From the NCBI RefSeq assembly GCF_963678975.1, contig NC_089275.1, positions 33,615,116 to 33,679,115 on the forward strand: DNA of 64,000 bases, in the 5' to 3' direction. Below are positions 26,430 to 39,400 of the stretch, piece by piece. Position numbers and translations under genes: made by a program. Origin of the DNA: Dysidea avara. Lineage: Eukaryota; Porifera; Demospongiae; Dictyoceratida; Dysideidae. The notes under the pieces are model-generated. The model was not told the origin of the DNA. It saw nothing but the letters and a program-made list of their open reading frames with translations, and did not search any database. How positions within the stretch are numbered: the first letter of the stretch is position 1; every line of letters begins with the position of its first letter.

Positions 26430-27497
26430 ATAATGACCAAAGTATTGTTACTAGAGCCATGTATCAGTGCCAATGGTGGTGTGGCCTCAATCATACAGCA
26501 TAGACTATAAGGCATCCACAAATATCATTGATGTAATCTCCTGCAAGACTTGCCTGCCAGTGGAATACTGACTTGTCAGCTGATGTGTTAGTGATGTAGT
26601 GCAGTATTCAAGTGTTTCATTTCATTTAGTGCAGCACTATTCATTGTTTCTTAGAAGGTTGGGTAAGTTCGAGGGTATGTTTCAAGCAAACTTGTACATA
26701 ATCATATGGCTTCTTGTACCATGACCTACAGAAAAGATTGCCTATGGAGAAGAGAAATGATAGAGTAAGTCCAGTATGCTTGAATACATGGAGTTATCAG
26801 AAAGATCAAATCGAATTACTGTTTAAAAATCAGTTGTGCCAATTTTGCTTCAATCGTCCAACTCAGCTGCCAATCTGATACTGGATTGGTAGATCAGTAG
26901 ATCAGTACACCTCTATAGTTTATATAATCATTAAGTATCTAAATCACAAGGGCATACACATGAGACAAAGTTTGGATGGTCCATGTATAATGATAGCCCA
27001 TGCCAGAAGATCAACCACTGGAACCATTTTGGTTCATGGTATTATGAACATTTCAGTTTTTTCTAAAGTACATTTATTGGTTCAATTTGCTTACTAGTGG
27101 ACCTATAATTCTGCCAAATTAACTTCTAAGGCTTCTTTTGTGGTTGGGGGAGCTTTCTAAGATGATGTTTAGGTTTGGAAAAAACATAGTCGATCACTAT
27201 TATGAACCATGGTAGTTGCTAGTAGTAAGACACCACTAAAATACGTATATATGACCTGTTTGGTGCTCATCACTTTCTCAGGAAATCATTTGAATGCATG
27301 CAGAGTTTTGTTGCATATAAACAACTCTAATTGGTATCATTTGTACACAAGATACACATTGTCCTTACCAGAAGATAATCAACTATTATTATTTCCCACA
27401 TAATGTCCCACTGTATAGTAAAGTAATATTGACAATTATAATGACAGTTTTGTTATCTTATAATTTATTCTTTTTTTAATTTGCTTTTATCCATTAG
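26430..27497. other. region upstream of the receptor kinase; signal-peptide exon not identified
   Basis: The first recognised receptor exon starts inside the first ligand-binding domain, so the exon with the start codon and signal peptide should lie here or further upstream. A frame at 27209-27403 with a hydrophobic stretch (MTCLVLITFSG) is possible, but its splice link was not established. Confidence 0.35.
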
Positions 27498-30400
27498 AAT
27501 TTTGTGATGGTCTCCGTGGACTAGAAACTGCAGCTGTTATTGGACAATCAAAAGAACAATTCTTAGAAGCTTTGAGTACTGTGTATTGTGGGTGTAGGAT
27601 GGTTGATGGAAGTGTTAACATTTTAAACAGACAACTGAATGAGACTTATAGTTCTACAGATTTTGAATTTCTATCTAGTGTGGAGGAAATTGGTGACACA
27701 TTAAAAATTCAGAACATCAATGTAACTGATAATATAACACTACCAAATTTACGACTGATTAGAGGACGTAACTTGGCAATATTTTTTGCCTTTCATCCTA
27801 TTGGAAATCCAGCATTGTTAATTGGCAATGTAACAGCACCAGTGTACCTACCAAAACTGACAGAGATCACATTAGGAGATGTGTACATTGTGACTGTTAG
27901 CTCTTGTAATCACAGAGGTGTCCTGTGGGAGGATATTCTTACTGACCCTAACAGTCAATATCAAGACATAGGAAATGATCATTGTCCTAGTAAGTCGAGC
28001 TTGTACATAACAGTGTATGGTGTAATGATATTTTCATTTAGGCAGTACAGACATTATTGCTAGTAACTGTTCATACTGTGAGTACCAATATTGTTGGAGC
28101 TCAGGATTGTGTCAAACTTGTAAGAAGCTCATATCTTTGATATTGTAATTATCCTGTTCTATAGTAACAAAGAATTTTGGCAATTGCTTTGAAGACTGTT
28201 CAACTAGGAGGTGTTACCTGAACATTGCAGGGAGTCCTCAGTGTTGTAGTAGAGAATGTGCAGCTGGTTGTGTGGGACCTAATGATAACCAGTGTACTGT
28301 AAGTAGTGTTGCACAATAGCTCAAAGTTAGTACATACGTAATTCTTACAGGCATGCAAGAATTTCAACAACAATGGTTCTTGTGTTACTGAGTGTCCTCC
28401 AAGAGAAATATACAATTCTGAAACTACGCGAGTTGAGATTAATGATAATTTTCAATTTCATTCTGTTTCACTCTGTGTAAAGACGTGTCCTAGTATGAAA
28501 TGAGAGTGTGATTTGATATAACAGTAATAACAAGAGTTAATAATAGTAGGGAGGGAGAGTGTCTAACACTCAATAGGCCTGTATAAAATGAGCGCGTAGA
28601 GCACCCCGCTTATTATCGTATACCTTTGTAATTTCCTATAGTGTTGATGACCGCAATAAACACGTTATGTCACATTTTGTATGGCCTTGCAAAATCGATA
28701 GTTGGTGAGAAAGCAGTGATGCGAAGGTGGCTAATCCAGTGAGTGATGGGAGAACCAGAGAGAAATCGTTCATAACTTTCATCTGGCGCTTTTTCTTAGG
28801 TTGGGATTCTCCAGGCTGTGTTTCATCGGCGCCGCTTCTTTTCCTTGCCATTGCTTTCGTTTGACACTTCTTGGTTACTTCCGGCTCATCACTCCTTGAC
28901 TGACGCCTCTTCTTGGGCGTTACCTCGGGACATGGCTGAACGGTAGATTCGTGATGCAATTCTACCTGTGCTTCCGAGCGTGCTTCATCTCCGCTTTTCC
29001 TCATTGATCTTCTCTGACGCTTCTTCTTGCTAGGCTGAACTGTTTCTGCTTCAATTTCGGCCAGTACCGAGGGCTGTTCATCACAAATCGACATGTTTGA
29101 TTGCACACGCTACCTCGCACGTTGCTCACGAGACTGATTCGTGAACAGCTAGTAGTATCGATAACTTCCTTCTGCGGCGTGCCTCATTTCACATCTCCCT
29201 TCATGCAATCAACATGTCTGGCCAAGAAGCCAGATTGTCTTACGCGCTCATTTTATACAGGCCTATTGAGCGTTAGACACTCTCCCTCCCTACACTGTTA
29301 AAACAGAGGTGTTCAGTTACACCCTGACAAAGGTGTTTATGGAACACCTACACCTTTAAAAGTGTACATATACACCCAGGAGTGTTATATTACGCCTATA
29401 ATGTTATTGGATTGTAATAGGTGTAGTGAAGCACCTTTGGGGTGTATTAAAGGTGTTATTGTACACTCTATACTGATACATTTGAAATGAATTTCTTTTT
29501 ATGTAGGAATGAGTCTACACACCATACAGTGATGCTATAGGATTATAAGCTCATGCAGTGTTGCTGATTTAGTTAAGTGCAACAGTGAAGCCCAAACAAT
29601 GTTACACTGAGCTCAGCATGCAGACGAACAGATCAGCAATACTATATCCACACTCAATCCATCAACGTACTGTAGCTTGCTAGATTGTACATGTCAATAA
29701 CTGCTTTTACAAGTACTAATAGTGTTTGTACATTCTGTATATTTGATTTTAGTGTGCATGCATTAATAATAATTCAATTCCGTACAATTATAGACATCTA
29801 AAATATAAATAGTACACCGTGCAAAAGGCAGAGGTCACAGATATGAGCATGAATGTACGTGCAGTCGATAAAGTAAATAATTCTGTGTGCCGTACTAATT
29901 TGTCAGCCATACGATTGCAATCCATACGATTGCAATCCATTATATAAGCATGGTAATGTCAGTGTTGATACAAGGCTACACATTAAATGCTACTTCATAA
30001 TCAGATTTTCAATCACTCCAGTCGTCAGCTGGGCATGTAATAATATCATTAATAGACTCCATATCATGTTCAAAATGGAAGGCAATTTTCCTTTGTGATG
30101 CTGGCGGGTAGCCTTGTGGTCATCATCATACACTGTGACGTGATTCAAAATGCCAGTTTGTGAGTTCAATTTATACATCAAGCTCAGCTATCGAGATTTT
30201 TCATACACTTGATTCGACCTTTAAAATTGCAAGCCTAATGGATGTCAACACATGTTCACTAATGAAAGTTGTTTGTGACAAGGCCAATGGACAATTCAAG
30301 CGGATACTGAGCTACACTCCCTGCAGTCCTAGGCCCGTGTGTTGGCACGCATACCTTCCAGAACGTCAAAATATACCAAGAAATAAGTGATGACTTGACG

Positions 30401-33400
30401 ATCCAATTGTTTTCCATTGAATGCCCAGCTTTTGAACGGCAGTGCGCACTATATAGCGTGTACCAGGTGCGAGACCAGGTGCACAATATCAGTAATATGG
30501 CCACCGAAAGAAGTAGTTGAGACGATAACGTGCGAGCAGCTTTCGATAGTAAAGAAATGTACCAAAATTTAACAGCATCGACGGCGGGAACGTGGAAGAC
30601 GATTTGTACCCGGCTGTCAGTGCTTGGGCGCCCAGAGTGGGAAAAGGTGAGTAATAGCCTGGCAACTTTGACGTGAATAATACATGATCTATAGCTGTGA
30701 AGAAAGAACTGGCGACGATTAGAAGTGTTCACTTCTGAACAGCGTAATGAGACTGGTATCTTCAGTAGAACTTTATACATTCTCGTGACAATGTTAGAGG
30801 CCATTTCCACTGGTTTGACAACTTGCAGGGCAGACAGGAGATAGCTCAGATGCCAAGAACATGCATCATTGCACATCCAAAGTCAGAGGCTTACAATGTG
30901 GTGTGCCAGAAGCTGGTTCAAAAGCGGCACCCAGCTAGATCCTGGATGACAATGGACAGTGGACTTGTGTCAGTATGTTGTTCAGTGTAAAACCTTGATA
31001 TACTGGTTTATTTTAGAAATTAAGAATTCAGAGGAGGGTGTAGCAAACAAATTGATCAAAGTATCAGTAATGAACCAACTAAAAAACTTGAGAATGGAGT
31101 CCAATGACAATGGATTGGAAATTTCTGATGGCTGAGTATGAGGACACTATTCAGTCCATGAAGGGTAACTATTAAAAGAGGGTAGCAAAGGAACTGTACA
31201 CTTCGAAGATAAGTGGATTTAACCCTACTGAACGCTTGGCTTTAATAGTGACTGAATGTCCACTTTTGTCAGAGGTCATTGATCAAAATTCCCCTCTTTG
31301 CACTCAAGTACTTGGGTAAGTACCATAATAGTTTGTTATAGTTTGAAAATTATGTTTTCTTTTGGTATATAGATACAAAACAAGTTTAAAGCAACTGTTC
31401 CAATTGACGACAATATAAAGGACTTCATTTTTATCAACTGGCCTATGTGGAGAACAAAATTGATGTCAACATTTTAGTGTAAGACCAGGCCATAATTTAA
31501 GAAACTATTGGGACTTCTTGGTGAATGTAGCTAATGATTTTTGTCCGCCCAGATGGTAAATAACAATTAAGAATACTGAATGTATGTAACAAGGTCTTAT
31601 TTTTCTCAGATGTTACTGATTGTGTACTTGGAAGCTGATTTGTCATCTGTTACATCCAAGATGGTTTGCAAGGATAGTGTTTTACTTAAGAATTTTGAGG
31701 TATGTTTACCTGTAGTGTACATTCACAAAGTTATGTTTGGTTGACATATAAAACCTCTAATAGTTTCACTGCATGAAGCGTTAATTACGTATTAGCATAT
31801 AAATTCACAACTCTAGATAGGCTGTAGTGCTTCTTGGTATCCAAAATCAATAATAGTCCAGTACTACTTACTGTACGGTGGGAGAAATTTTGGCTAATTT
31901 GGCAAAATGATTTTGATTCACCAAAAATGCAATATGACACAACTATTCGCCAATATATTATCCACCAAATTCCTTCTCGAGTAAAATCACCAAAATTTTG
32001 TATTGTGCGGTATACAGCCAAGACTATAGTTCCTTGAAATATGTACCTATTGTCATGCTTGTTATATGTTATATGTGACCGGATTTCACATAACAAGGCT
32101 TCCACACACACAAAATCAAACTTACGTTTTTACCAGAAATGGATTGCTGGCCTAATACACTATCACATTCCACACTGTACTTCCTTCAGGACTGGCAAGT
32201 CTGGTTTCTGTGGCAGCTTTCTTCCGACCCTGTCAAAGCCACGAGTGGGAGAATGGCGCCATTGAATGGCCATGGCTTTGTGATAATGGTGTGTAGTGAG
32301 CTGGGACTTCACAGAGACCTCACCAATAGTGTTCTCGGTCAATTTGGAGTGATTTGAGGGCCATGGAGAGCCCAAACTTGGCCTCTGGATTCCAATCGTC
32401 TTCTTACTCCATTTTATACCCGTATATTAAGACCACCATCCACCCCCACCCTCCCACCCTATTACTATCACCTGTGATATTATTACTCACTCGAGAAAAG
32501 CTGCCCAAAACAGGGCTAATTTTGGGTATCAGAAATGTATACACCCACTCAGTGATAGCTAGTAAATAGATGCATACTTGGTGCAAATTTTGTTTGCACA
32601 GCTGTAGGCACTGGGAAGTTATTACACAATGATTACTTAAAATCGCCATATCTCCTAACGAAGTTTTGTGCGTCGAAGCCGGGTTTTGTCAAATTCAGTC
32701 ACACATGAATACATTATAGCCCATATAAAGTGTAACTTACCAATTGACGCTTGAAAACAGGCCCACACTTTATTACCAACCCATGGAACACAAGGAGTAG
32801 CAAGAGGCAGCCAAACAAGCTAACTGTAGTATTGTTAGATCACGTGATCTCACGTGATGCCTCTCTTAATATTAAATGTGACCGGATTTCACATAACAAG
32901 GCTTCCACACACACAAAATCAAACTTACGTTTTTACCAGAAATGGATTGCTGGCCTAATACACTATCACATTCCACACTGTACTTCCTTCAGGACTGGCA
33001 AGTCTGGTTTCTGTGGCAGCTTTCTTCCGACCCTGTCAAAGCCACGAGTGGGAGATTGGCGCCATTGAATGGCCATGGCTTTGTGATAATGGTGTGTAGT
33101 GAGCTGGGACTTCACAGAGACCTCACCAATAGTGTTCTCGGTCAATTTGGAGTGATTTGAGGGCCATGGAGAGCCCAAACTTGGCCTCTGGATTCCAATC
33201 GTCTTCTTACTCCATTTTATACCCGTATATTAAGACCACCATCCACCCCCACCCTCCCACCCTATTACTATCACCTGTGATATTATTACTCACTCGAGAA
33301 AAGCTGCCCAAAACAGGGCTAATTTTGGGTATCAGAAATGTATACACCCACTCAGTGATAGCTAGTAAATAGATGCATACTTGGTGCAAATTTTGTTTGC

Positions 33401-36400
33401 ACAGCTGTAGGCACTGGGAAGTTATTACACAATGATTACTTAAAATCGCCATATCTCCTAACGAAGTTTTGTGCGTCGAAGCCGGGTTTTGTCAAATTCA
33501 GTCACATATATTTTTATTCTTTCATTTGCAGTGACGTGATGTCGATGTAGACTCTGTGCAGTTTCGAATTGTCAGTCAGAACCATTTCTGGTTATTACCG
33601 GACGCGATCCTGAAGATGAGGGTAGCTGAGTCTTCCATCACTAGTTCCATTCCAGTACTAAGTGTTTAATCTCAAAGATGAGTAGCTGTTGCAACTGGAG
33701 ACTGTTATTCCAATCTGGAGATAATGTGTATAGAACAGTAAACTCTTATGAATTTTAAGTTTATACATTATGTATAGCAGTTTTCAATGCTTGTTCTTTT
33801 AATATCACCCTAATAAAATTGTAACACTACTAAAGACGTTATTGAAACACCTAGGGGTGTTATGTATACCACCTTAAAGTTTATTGGAACACCGTTGGTG
33901 AGTGTTACTGAAACTCCTTTAAGGGTGTACTGGGACACCCTAAGGGGGAGCCTGACAACAATTGTAGATAAAACACCCCAAGGGGTGTTTAATAAAGAAC
34001 CTTTTTTTTAACTGTACTATTATTAACTCTTGGTAATAATATTGGTACTATTTTGTAGGTAATCGCTTTGAGCAAGGAATATTTTGTGTAAGTGAGTGTC
34101 AACCAGGTTTCCAAACAGTGGGACGTGTTTGTGAACCATGTCCAAATGGAGTGTGTGTGTGAGGAAGAGGTTAGTTATCATGTAATAAGGAACATGAAGG
34201 TTTACAAATATTGACCAGAAACTAGCCTCACATCTTGTCATTATTGACATTAGGTACAATCAAGCAGTTAATTTTAGTATGACTTGAAATTCCATTGAAT
34301 TGTTTGAAGGTTATTGACTAACTGACTACCTAATTGCATGCCTTCTGACAAGCATAACTCAATCATGCATGGCTGTATAAAGCTATATGCAGGTTTGATT
34401 TTTTCACTGTTAGACATCGCTTCAGCCCAGCTGGTATGTCATAGTACAATGCTTGCATCATGAACTTACCCTTGTTCTTCTTTTCTTTTTTGTTGATGGC
34501 ACAAGATGTCAATTCATGCTAGCACACCAATGGCTTTGTATTGAGAATATATGCATAAGCTTTGTACCACACCTCCCACAGTAGTAGAAGCAAGCAGATT
34601 AATGTATCATTCTTTGAGTTTGGGTGTGGTAAGGCTGCTTTATATTTCCTTTTTTGAGTGATGGCCAGCAGAAAAAGGGTCTGGTGTAACTCAATAGCCA
34701 TTTACTTCTGACAACTATCCAGTGTTTGGAGATATTGATTGATGACTAAACATATTGACAAGGTGCAAAATTAATGTTCTATGTTTATTACTGCTAGTGT
34801 GAGCTAGAAACCTTAATGCATGATTTACACCTTGTTAATACATCTTTATTCACCATCCTTACCAATCAGCTTGCCCATAGACCATTATTGCAGACGAGTC
34901 TGCATTCATCTGCATTAAAACTCGTCTGAATTAAAAAGCCTATTGAATTCATTAAATAATCTGTTCAACATCTCCAAAAATGGTCAGTATATGGCCATTG
35001 TAGCTAATACACCAGATGCTTTCATCTGCTGACCATTATACTCATAAAAGGAAAAATAACAGTCTGGCCATGCAGGACTAATCCCAACACCTTCCTGCAG
35101 TGGGATAGTGTAATAAACAATAAAACAGCCAAAAACTATGCGGAACGGCTACATAAAAGTTGCTGTGCTACAGGCCTAGCTTTCAGCTATGGCACAGGGT
35201 GCATTGTGGCTAATCTGTTGCTATGTACCACCTTAGTGATGTGGAAGGAATAGCATTTGATTGCCCCTGAAGGATAACTTATAACATGGCAGTAAAGCAC
35301 TATTTATTTTACCATGCATGCTACAAATCATTATCACTATACAAGTTACCAGCCAGGTACTGATTAACCTCAGGTGGTAAGATGTCATAATATGATTTGT
35401 GTAGTTTAAATTAGCTGAATTCATTATATTATTATGCAAATTGTGTATTTGTCTGGTATTCTTTCCTTTCATACACATTCAATTACGTTGCAACAAAATG
35501 TTAACAAACATTGTCAAGTATAAGGCAAATATTGGTATTTTATAAGCTAGTAGGATCAGTATATAGCTACAAAAGGGTGCAGAGGGATTATTTCCTGAAT
35601 TTGCAAATAGTTGTAGATGAAATGCTGGCTGTTATTGCGTTCACTGAGCATTGCTTATGAAATGATATATTGTAGTGTGTAGAGGAGTAGATGGAGAACT
35701 GTTACCTGCTGCAGTTCCGTCATTTTCTGGATGTACTATTGTTAATGGTGACCTCACTTTTAATGTCATAACATATGAGCAGTTCATGTAAGTGACTGAT
35801 ATTAATAGTACAAATAAAATTATAATTATTTTCACAGCTCTCAGAATCTCACAAGCTAAGGAAAACCTTTCTAGTATTGAAGTGATTTTAGGACAACTGG
35901 TCATTGCTAACTGGGGAGAGGAAGTGTTTGACTATCTTCCTAACCTCATGTACATTAGAGGATTTGAGGGGGACACTGCTTTACCAGATAATTATCTTGA
36001 TTCTCTACAGATCAGTGACAACAACCCAACCTCCAGTGCTCTTCTTGCTGTCAGTCTAACACAAATACACTTTCCCAAACTAGTAGAAATATCAGGGTTA
36101 GATATTTGGCTGGTCAACAATCCTACCTTGTGTTATATTGGAGAACTGGAATATTACAAAGCATCACTTAACCAGACAGTTCTATATGATGGTGTTACAG
36201 CACGAAGGGACTACAATGAATGTGGTTAGTTAACTTATTGTTAAATTATATGTTGTTTTTGTGAAGACGTAAATGAGTTTCAGAATTTAACATTATCATA
36301 AACTGTACACACATGCAATATTGTGTTGTGCAATATTGTGTTGTGTAATAAATAATAGACAAGTGTCCATTACTTAGAAACTATAAGAAAAGGGTTTTCA

Positions 36401-39400
36401 CAAATTTGTAACATAGTAGTCATGCCCAAACAGAGGTAAGTCATTTTGCTGTGAGGTGTCACAGGCCTAAGATATGCCTTTCACCAAGAGTTAATAATAG
36501 TGGAGGGGAGAGTGTCTAACGCTCTATAGGGCTGTATAAAATGAGCGCGTTTGAGCTAAAGGGCTTCAGCAATCTTAACAAGCGACGTGTTAACGCATTC
36601 AATTATGGTTACGCGGCCGGCGCAATACTCATTTAGAAAAGAGTGTATCGATAGCAGTTCACGTGAGAAGCGAGTGTTATAAAATGGCGTCTGTTCATGG
36701 TTCTCAGTCGAAGATATCAAATTGTGGCGGTACCCGTGAGAGTGGAAAACAGATTCTAGTGGAAGAAGAAACATCATCTCGATGGGAAGTAGGAAAACCG
36801 TCGTTCGAAGACGCGATGCGGTGTTACCTGGTCTGCCATGTTGGAACCAAATACCACTATCAGCACTTCCCAAATATCGATTCTAGTGTTCATGAACTTG
36901 TGCAGCATCGTTGATGTGACCTGACAAAAGTGACGATTGGTTCTAGTTGTCAAGTGTAGAGAATACGACTAAACACGAGATTATCCGTGGTGAAGCCCTT
37001 TAGCTCCCACGCGCTCATTTTATGCAGCCCTATACAGCGTTAGACACTCTCCCCTCCACTATTATTAACTCTTGCTTTCACCTACCACTGCAGCTGGTGT
37101 ATTACAAACACCATGGGACAGATTAATAGTCCTGATTATCAAGGGGTCCTGATTTTTCTGATCAGTTTATGTATTAAGAGATAGTTTTGGACCTTAACTA
37201 AGTGTCTGAATTATGTAGGTGTCCTCAAGTGTAAATATTAATTAACAGTTTCCAGTGTAAACTTTGTTTTGACATGTGTTAATTGCGGCAGTTGCTGCAG
37301 GAATGTCATGTCACAACCAGTGTAATGAGACATATCGGTGTTGGGGTCCAGCTGATACTGACTGTGTAGTGTGTAAAGTTTACCTGTACAGGAATGGAGC
37401 TGAACGTATCTGTGTTGACTCCTGTGAGTCTACTAAACTACAATTCCTAGCCCTGTAAGTGAGCACCTTGTAAAAGCTGTACATATTAAATCATATTTTG
37501 CTTTGTATAAGATTCCTGTATGCTGACATGCAACTCTACAATGACATGTGAAGTGTGTCATGAAGAGTGTAATGATTCTTGTTCTGGTCCAGTAAGTTCA
37601 TTACACAATAACGTTTCATTAGCTTGTGTCATACGTATATTACAGGCACCTAGTGACTGTTTTGGTCGATGTAAGAATTTTGCTCTTCCCACTGCCAACA
37701 ACACTATCACTTGTGTTTCACAGTGTCCATTAGGTACTTATCTTAATGACACTAACTTCTGTCTCCCTTGTAATAGTGTGTGTGTGTACCACAAACTGGG
37801 TGTACTGGTCCTAGTGATCGTTTAGAAGATGGTGGATGTAATCGTTGTTATCATGTGTTGAGAAATGAGACTAGGTCAAGTTAGATGTCTTCCTGATGAT
37901 GGTTGTATTGACAGAACATTTCTGAATCTTCCATTTGATCCTGTTGAACCATTTCCATTCCCAACACAATTTTGTGATCCTTGTCATGAACACTGTCAAT
38001 CTTGTAGTGGACCTGAGGCCCATCAATGTTCACAATGTGTGTTTGCATCAAGAGAAGACAGTCAAGGTCGCTCCATTTGTGTTGGTAGTTGTGAAGATGG
38101 AGAATATGTCAGTGCCAAACGTTGTCTATTATGTCATGAAGAGTGTGATGGATGTATTGGTGGGAGTCAACAAGAATGTATTGCTTGTAAGAATGTTAAG
38201 AACTTTTTGAGTGAGGATGACACATTTAAGTGTTTACCTTCAGGAAGATGTCCCAGTAACAAATATGAGAATATGGTTAATTCAACATGTGATCAATGTC
38301 ATCCTTATTGTGCAGAATGTGTTGGTCCAGAGTCCACCAATTGCACATCATGTAATGATCCTCCAGGATATACCATCATTCCACCAGAGGGTGATGATCT
38401 AGGACTGTTTGGTTGTTGTGGTCCTGATTTTATGGCAGTGGAAGAAGATCAATTGTGTGTCACCATTGACCATGACAACACAACAGCAGTTAGTTCAGCA
38501 TCGTAAGCGAAGAAGTGTTAGTTGTACTGTTAAATGCTACACTTGCTATTATTAGGAGTACTACTCCAGTTAGTGCAGTAGTAGGAGGTGTACTAGGTGG
38601 AGTACTGCTGATCATTATTATCATAGTGGTTATCATGTTTAGTACTCGAGCATTGTACAAGCCTTCAGCCAAGTACACCTTTAAAGCAGTAAGACTTCCC
38701 CAATTTTAACAATTACTCTGTAACAATTGGTAAATACACAGGTAGCTGAAAATCCAATATATGTCAAGTCTCCATTTGCTAGCATGAAAATGGAAGAGGT
38801 TTGTATGAAATGTTTAGTGACCACACTCCACTTAGTCCCACTGAATAATTTAGTTGTTACAGCCTCCAAAAGTTCTTCCCAATCAATCCCACCTCGTTGT
38901 GATACCAGCGACTGCCCTAGAGTTGGAGAAGGAACTTGGAAATGGAGCATTTGGAACTGTTTATAAGGTTCTGCAACTAAATGCACTGAGTGTAGTTGCA
39001 TGGACACAAAATGTTTTGTAGGGATTTTGGCAACATGAGGGAGATACTCACAAGTATACTGTAGCTATTAAAGTAATGAAGGAAGGAACATCTGCTCAAT
39101 CCCAAAATGAACTACTCCAGGTTAATGTGTACAACATATGTGACCGGATTTGCGAAAAGGTACCTTTTCCACACATTTTACATGCCAGCAAACAAAATGA
39201 TGTAACACTTGATTCCTTATACTGATTAACTTGCTTTTAGTTTCACAATACAGCCAGATACTTTATCTGCACTCATGGAAAATTTCAAGCAATTACATAA
39301 AATGATCAAAAAGTTATGGAGTTTCAAAGTTCAAAAAAAGGGTCACATTTTGTGTGTGAAAAAGGTACCTTTTCGCAAATCCGGTCACATATGATGTTTA

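Follow-up and report, generated by a model that had tools for sequence, protein, structure and literature searches.

Two short elements in a receptor-like gene of Dysidea avara are very probably deletion derivatives of a P-superfamily transposon with two genes

P transposition is known mainly from Drosophila, with further work on THAP9 in zebrafish and human, and the superfamily is taken to be marked by a 17-nt stagger and a THAP domain. The Drosophila P element has a single gene. In this study, a 64,000-nucleotide stretch of the sponge Dysidea avara (NC_089275.1, positions 33,615,116 to 33,679,115; hereafter the window) was analyzed, in which a first-pass annotation had reported two elements, A and B, with shared terminal inverted repeats (TIRs) and unrelated, gene-like interiors. 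We conclude that the 778-bp core of A and the whole of B are non-autonomous and very probably arose by internal deletion from a cut-and-paste transposon of the P superfamily, an assessment that includes the mechanism proposed below. The long relatives of A and B carry two genes, in contrast to the one of the Drosophila element.

Excision by the Drosophila P transposase leaves the donor site with 17-nt 3′ tails, and after repair such a site is described as an 8-bp duplication, a remnant of one end of at most ~17 nt, microhomology or templated filler, the other end, and the duplication (PMC2895639). This 17-nt stagger has been called unusually long (PMC7776569) and atypical (PMC10983969). As of 2006, THAP was described as a part of the known P proteins (PMC1562414). 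A 7-bp duplication is already known in the superfamily from Galileo (PMC2775673), for which GTAGTAC in D. buzzatii, GTATTAC in D. willistoni, and the consensus GTANTAC/GTATTAC are given (PMC2775673, PMC4168063).

The Dysidea family resembles Galileo, as described in these sources, in its 7-bp duplications, in its placement in the P superfamily by transposase, and in its many non-autonomous copies (PMC2775673, PMC4168063). However, Galileo has THAP and long, internally repetitive ends, whereas here the ends are ~67–74 bp, no THAP was found, and a second, convergent gene is present. The scars attributed to the family below are like those of the Drosophila P element in consisting of target duplication, end remnants, and filler, but the 8-bp duplication and 17-nt tails reported there (PMC2895639) stand against 7 bp and, as the scars suggest, ~25 nt here. 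The P-type miniature inverted-repeat transposable elements (MITEs) of Anopheles gambiae are likewise short non-autonomous copies that have their ends in common with P masters, but their duplications are 8 bp and their centers are unrelated to P (PMC1562414), whereas the interior of A is master-derived. Two convergent genes between terminal repeats are also described for RAG-like transposons (RAG1L/RAG2L), which, unlike the present family, belong to another transposase superfamily and have 5-bp duplications (PMC7204232); no kinship is claimed.

The family and its two-gene long relatives

The ends of A and B were 91% identical over 67 bp, and the annotated coordinates of these ends were correct, as were the exact 7-bp duplications claimed for A (GTAATAA) and B (CTTTCAC). 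The 12-base end had four matches in the window, all exact and two per element, whereas the chance mean was 0.74 with one mismatch allowed. A genome search with the terminal repeat and a tabulation of duplication length, both proposed by the first-pass annotation, uncovered further members of the family. The 17-base seed occurred 804 times (415 + 389) in the 550.8-Mb genome, with 0 occurrences in a reversed-pattern control. Among the 100 matches listed, pairing of adjacent plus- and minus-strand rows gave 30 elements with both ends exact, of which 8 were 39–48 bp, 4 were 299 bp, 15 were 550–780 bp, and 3 were 4.86–5.10 kb long. Exact 7-bp duplications flanked 16 of the 18 fetched elements, a length within the 7–8 bp of the P superfamily. 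The duplication consensus was NTANTAN: when the 40 exact duplications (from 16 elements and 24 scars) were read on both strands, 77 of the 80 sequences had T2 and A6. Of the 10 ends of A, B, and the three long elements, 8 contained the motif GTATAAAATG, which may serve as a promoter.

In each of the three long relatives (L009, 4934 bp; L010, 5103 bp; L011, 4857 bp), the frames formed one set per strand, and the two sets were directed inward. The minus-strand set matched PF21787 (TNP-like RNase H, N-terminal), which we take to stand for P-element/THAP9 transposases, with E values of 7.9e-10 in L011, 3.6e-09 in L010, and 4.3e-09 in L009. All three scores exceeded the curated cut-off, and the N-terminal RNase H half alone was recognized. 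By this domain, each long relative has a P/THAP9-type RNase H transposase, like the Drosophila P element. FDEV and CDxxxxN motifs, as well as a later ESLF exon, were visible by eye. In the genome, PF21787 had at least 151 matches, the best of which scored 94 bits versus 37–40 bits for L009–L011; the higher-scoring matches suggest that other P-type lineages coexist with this one.

The 763-bp part of A was 99.3–99.5% identical to 778-bp copies elsewhere (L028, L012), with 99.5% identity to positions 1–763 of L012. Positions 1–239 of A aligned to 4934–4697 of L009, and positions 238–763 aligned to 540–16, whereby the two opposite ends of the long element are joined; in addition, the three long relatives covered 778 of the 778 bases of L012. 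Therefore, A is an L009-like element without its middle. A had been annotated as a single element of 5.5 kb (28531–34032). However, the uninterrupted copy L012 terminates in CCCTCCCTACTATTATTAACTCTTG, and in A this sequence is split by 4.7 kb of foreign DNA with different ends, so that A is a 778-bp element into which another transposon has inserted; the reading as one 5.5-kb element was rejected. B was 98.6% identical to another short copy (L019), and its positions 1–232 and 315–590 aligned to the two ends of L010 at 74–76% identity; in total, 508 of its 590 bases were covered by the three long relatives. As annotated, the interiors of A and B do not match each other, with matches of at least 60 bp confined to the ends. 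Their reported richness in GC was only mild (45% in B and 46.5% in L012, used here for A), in a window that itself ranges from 34 to 47% per kb.

Both elements contain the ATG-initiated frames and leaders that had been noted, but the source of these is the transposon's own second gene, clearly for A and probably for B. The 152-codon frame of A is the N-terminus of the second gene (~109 residues, the split point being counted by eye against L009) running into the antisense of the other end. It had no Pfam match. The frame was open in A, L012, and L028 and shorter in L020 (96 codons) and L021 (71 codons); hence, we make no claim that the short protein is maintained. In B, the 76-codon frame probably starts near the apparent start of the second gene of L010, as judged by position without a protein alignment. 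In deletion derivatives, the terminal repeats and the gene starts survive since both adjoin the ends, and the derivatives consequently resemble a promoter, a leader, and an ATG frame. The proposal of a non-autonomous family was therefore upheld, since A and B share ends and duplication length with transposase-bearing relatives but lack the transposase, as MITEs do.

The plus-strand set of frames represents the second gene, which was open over 391 codons in L011. No credible Pfam match was obtained for it; the lowest E value (FliT, 4e-4 in L010) was below the cut-off. A protein search of the genome returned 108 matches to the second gene, with amino-acid identity down to 34%. At least 89 of them were convergent with a transposase RNase H exon within 5 kb (a lower bound, as 150 of the 153 exon matches were used), at spacings of 1083–3697 bp (median, 1565), and 59 of these 89 had no internal stop. 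As for the remaining matches, one had an exon 8.2 kb away and 18 had none among the 150 exon matches. Between L011 and L009, the ratio of nonsynonymous to synonymous substitution rates (dN/dS) was 0.18 and 0.12 in two parts of the second gene, compared with 0.12 in the RNase H exon and 0.18 in the first exon of the transposase; dS was near saturation in the first part of the second gene (1.67), and comparisons with L010 were saturated. Furthermore, two more families (L089/L090 and L091/L092), whose second proteins were 36–38% identical, kept both genes in elements of 5.0–5.3 kb. Their terminal repeats were 72–74 bp long and started with CAAGAGT, and 7-bp duplications were present in three of the four copies. 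On this comparative evidence, the second gene appears to belong to the transposon, making the family a two-gene P lineage. Nothing describing such a lineage, or a 25-nt cut, was found in the titles, abstract openings, and passages of the open-licence papers searched.

Small palindromic sites and the proposed excision step

A pattern of both 12-base ends with 0–30 bases between them had 238 matches of 24–54 bp in the genome and 0 in the control, whereas the same ends with 31–61 bases between them (55–85 bp) had only 12 matches, several with filler or end copies. Forty of the small loci were fetched with their flanks. The 7-bp duplication was exact at 28 of them and had at most one mismatch at 36, compared with exact agreement in 26 of 1560 cross-site pairs, in which left and right flanks came from different sites. 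After exclusion of six loci with duplicated flanks (L040, L043, L044, L050, L056, and L057) and of L041, a miss with five mismatches and a poorly delimited end, 24 of 33 duplications were exact. Ten further loci (L079–L088), mostly chosen for long retention, gave 8 exact duplications, for a total of 36/50. In a dispersed repeat with one scar, five copies had the 7-mer on both sides of the scar, some with a base change, and six copies were scar-free, one of which (L070) had a single plain ATGTTAC.

Among the matches listed, 98 distinct junctions were present in 140 sites (three of which exceed the length of the 238-match pattern, and a few places match twice). The retained lengths of 196 ends ranged from 12, the floor of the pattern, to 25 nt, with 15 ends at 23, 5 at 24, and 11 at 25, and no end exceeded that length. 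The references for this tally were two end variants that had been observed and two that were assumed, without the end of L010, and other end types count short in it. The end types of A, B, and L010 themselves were applied to 61 junctions selected by eye for their AGGGAGGG/GGAGGGG/AGAGAGG-like ends. Of these junctions, 60 were assignable; 15 ends lay at 24–25 nt, and one junction went beyond. GGGGAGGG-like ends, which reach 25 in the larger tally, count short here. The scar at C7:9301253 consisted of exactly 25 + 25 nt. As the pattern admits longer remnants on either side, the limit of retention is no product of the search. The limit may follow either the 25-nt distance to the end or the position of the GAGAGTGTC block. 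End remnants of the kind left by the long staggered cut that characterizes the P superfamily are seen here in scars rather than in biochemistry, and the simplest mechanism for them would be cleavage by a P-type transposase at ~25 nt from the end.

In the proposed mechanism, the transposase gene, split by introns, would read inward from one end and the second gene from the opposite end. The transposase, alone or together with the second gene's product, would recognize the ~67-bp terminal repeats, excise the element, and insert it at NTANTAN with a 7-bp stagger. Excision would cut the non-transferred strand ~25 nt inside each end, leaving up to 25 nt of each end behind, and error-prone end joining of these remnants would then produce the small palindromic scars.

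Several other sites were noted. Related ends of the CAAGAGTYCATA type gave 579 further scar-like matches, with 0 in the control; among the 50 listed, lengths were 25–53 bp (pattern limit, 54). A 60-bp foldback palindrome at G000:C6:1867341-1867400 had the same 12-base ends and an unrelated stem, unlike a joined scar. One identical scar was found in several copies (L033, L040, L044, L050, and others) of a dispersed repeat longer than 1.4 kb, indicating an old scar amplified with its host repeat. Recurrent repair as the origin of the most repeated scar was rejected, as the four copies compared sit in the dispersed repeat.

Alternative explanations

The first-pass annotation had proposed that the family picks up the 5′ ends of different host genes. 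Plant Pack-TIR elements are non-autonomous and have gene-like interiors, as A and B do. The unrelated interiors with ATG frames would suit such capture, as would the 696/729-, 618-, and 299-bp size classes, whose interiors are unexplained by the three long relatives and may include host sequence. Unlike in Pack-TIR elements, however, the interior of A is the transposon's own; the full coverage of L012 and that of 508 of the 590 bases of B by the family's long elements led us to reject capture for A and leave it unsupported for B. Moreover, the interiors have repeat-like matches in the genome, although a host source is possible among the partial ones. Of the 52 matches to the interior of B, 23 (B itself counted) covered at least 417 of 421 bases and the other 29 were parts, mostly with recurrent breakpoints, and 21 of the 37 matches to the interior of the 696-bp class covered at least 440 of 481 bases. 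The annotation had named a common interior as the outcome that would speak against capture. The matches to the interior of B would fit that outcome if each of the 52 is bounded by the repeat. Overall, we consider Pack-TIR-like capture highly improbable. For the small palindromes, a reading as ultra-short transposed elements, that is, a family of micro-MITEs, would account for the presence of both ends, for the 7-bp duplications at most of the loci checked, and for the recurrence of one junction type many times in the genome. Against this stand the diversity of junctions, the fillers, the retained lengths, which take every value from 12 through 25, and the scarcity of matches at 55–85 bp. The most frequent junction also speaks against it, since the four copies of it that were compared are embedded in a larger dispersed repeat and spread together with that repeat. 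Micro-MITEs are accordingly a very unlikely origin of these sites. A place for the second gene outside the transposon machinery, as an unrelated passenger or a neighboring element, is also unlikely. The lack of a credible known domain and the 19 of 108 matches without a listed convergent exon within 5 kb would agree with a passenger, but convergence with the transposase exon at 1.1–3.7 kb persists at identities down to 34%, both genes are kept between terminal repeats in two more divergent families, and the dN/dS of the second gene resembles that of the transposase.

Several observations weigh against descent of A and B from a P-superfamily transposon with the mechanism proposed here. THAP was not found at E ≤ 1 in the scanned pieces of L009–L011, for which reason the family is filed as a variant lineage of the superfamily; the L011 leader (~170 bp) would leave little room for an upstream THAP exon if the assumed ATG is the start. 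There was no credible Pfam match in the transposase exons after the RNase H exon, and Pfam recognized neither a GTP-binding nor a C-terminal RNase H domain in the scanned pieces of the long relatives. No solved structure was matched by the RNase H exon, either singly or as a three-sequence profile, and CPTH was seen by eye where the Galileo transposase has its D(2)H motif (PMC4168063). The RNase H match of L009 holds two stops, the second-gene matches of L009 and L010 also contain stops, and L009, like L022, has no exact 7-bp duplication; thus, none of the three long elements is demonstrably autonomous. For B, 82 bp (233–314) were matched by none of the three long relatives, and its relative is only ~75% identical. 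As for the scars, 12 of the 40 loci had no exact duplication, 4 of these with at least three mismatches, and in five of the six scar-free repeat copies (L069, L071–L073, and L078) the 7-mer was altered, truncated, or absent. The evidence for the 25-nt cut consists of scars, end types without a reference are unmeasurable, and junction C12:10139665 retains 27 and 33 nt, both ends beyond 25.

The deletion-derivative reading of A and B can be extended to a distinct animal lineage of the P superfamily, which lost or never had THAP, needs a second, convergently transcribed protein, and cuts with a ~25-nt stagger, with hundreds of scars recording the cut position and end joining; we regard the chances of this wider proposal as even. 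If it is true, the conserved second gene, the lack of a detected THAP, and the 25-nt cut suggested by the scars would mean that both superfamily features, stagger and THAP, vary, and a two-gene lineage would offer a concrete way to test what determines the stagger. With 238 matches for one end type and 579 for related ends, the scar-like sites could be used as a natural record of how germline breaks are repaired in a non-model animal. The lesson for annotation is that a gene-like interior of a MITE can consist of the starts of genes that belong to the transposon itself.

The host gene and the insertion in A

The coordinates of the features of A and B are listed in the table.

Table. Features of elements A and B, by position in the window
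Feature	Position	Strand	Basis or remark
Left 7-bp target duplication of A, GTAATAA	28524..28530		Exact copy at 34033-34039
A core main part, 763 bp, internally deleted two-gene P-superfamily copy (very probable)	28531..29293	-	L012, L009 alignments
152-codon frame in A	28639..29094	-	Second-gene N-terminus (~109 residues) + ~43 residues antisense
Unrelated 4.7-kb insertion	29294..34015		Inside right terminal repeat of A; junctions compared with L012
Final 15 bp of right terminal repeat of A	34018..34032	-	Comparison with L012
Right 7-bp target duplication of A	34033..34039		Exact copy of left one
Left 7-bp target duplication of B, CTTTCAC	36478..36484		Exact copy on right
Element B, 590 bp, internally deleted L010-like two-gene copy (very probable)	36485..37074	+	L019, L010 alignments
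76-codon frame in B	36684..36911	+	ATG at element position 200
Right 7-bp target duplication of B	37075..37081		Exact copy of left one

In the surrounding gene, Pfam recognized Receptor L domains at 27464–28060 (E 4.4e-14) and 35792–36226 (E 4.3e-11), as well as a growth-factor-receptor IV match at 37862–38503 that was under its cut-off. By its look, the gene may encode a receptor of the EGFR/insulin-receptor type. A lies between the two Receptor L pieces, and B lies between the second of these and the growth-factor-receptor IV piece.

The insertion in A (~4.72 kb, 29294 to 34014/34015) has the ends ACTGTTAAAA.../...TTTTAACTG(T) and is flanked by a 2–3 bp duplication, AC, TA, or TAC, the boundary being ambiguous. 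The two frames tested inside it had no Pfam match. Several GGTGTT/ACACC-like repeats were located close to its ends. In addition, it contains two copies of a ~640-bp element starting with TATATGTGACCGGATTTCACATAACAAGG (approximately 32066–32705 and 32869–33510, extents judged by eye), which are 803 bp apart and 99% identical over a 300-nt core.

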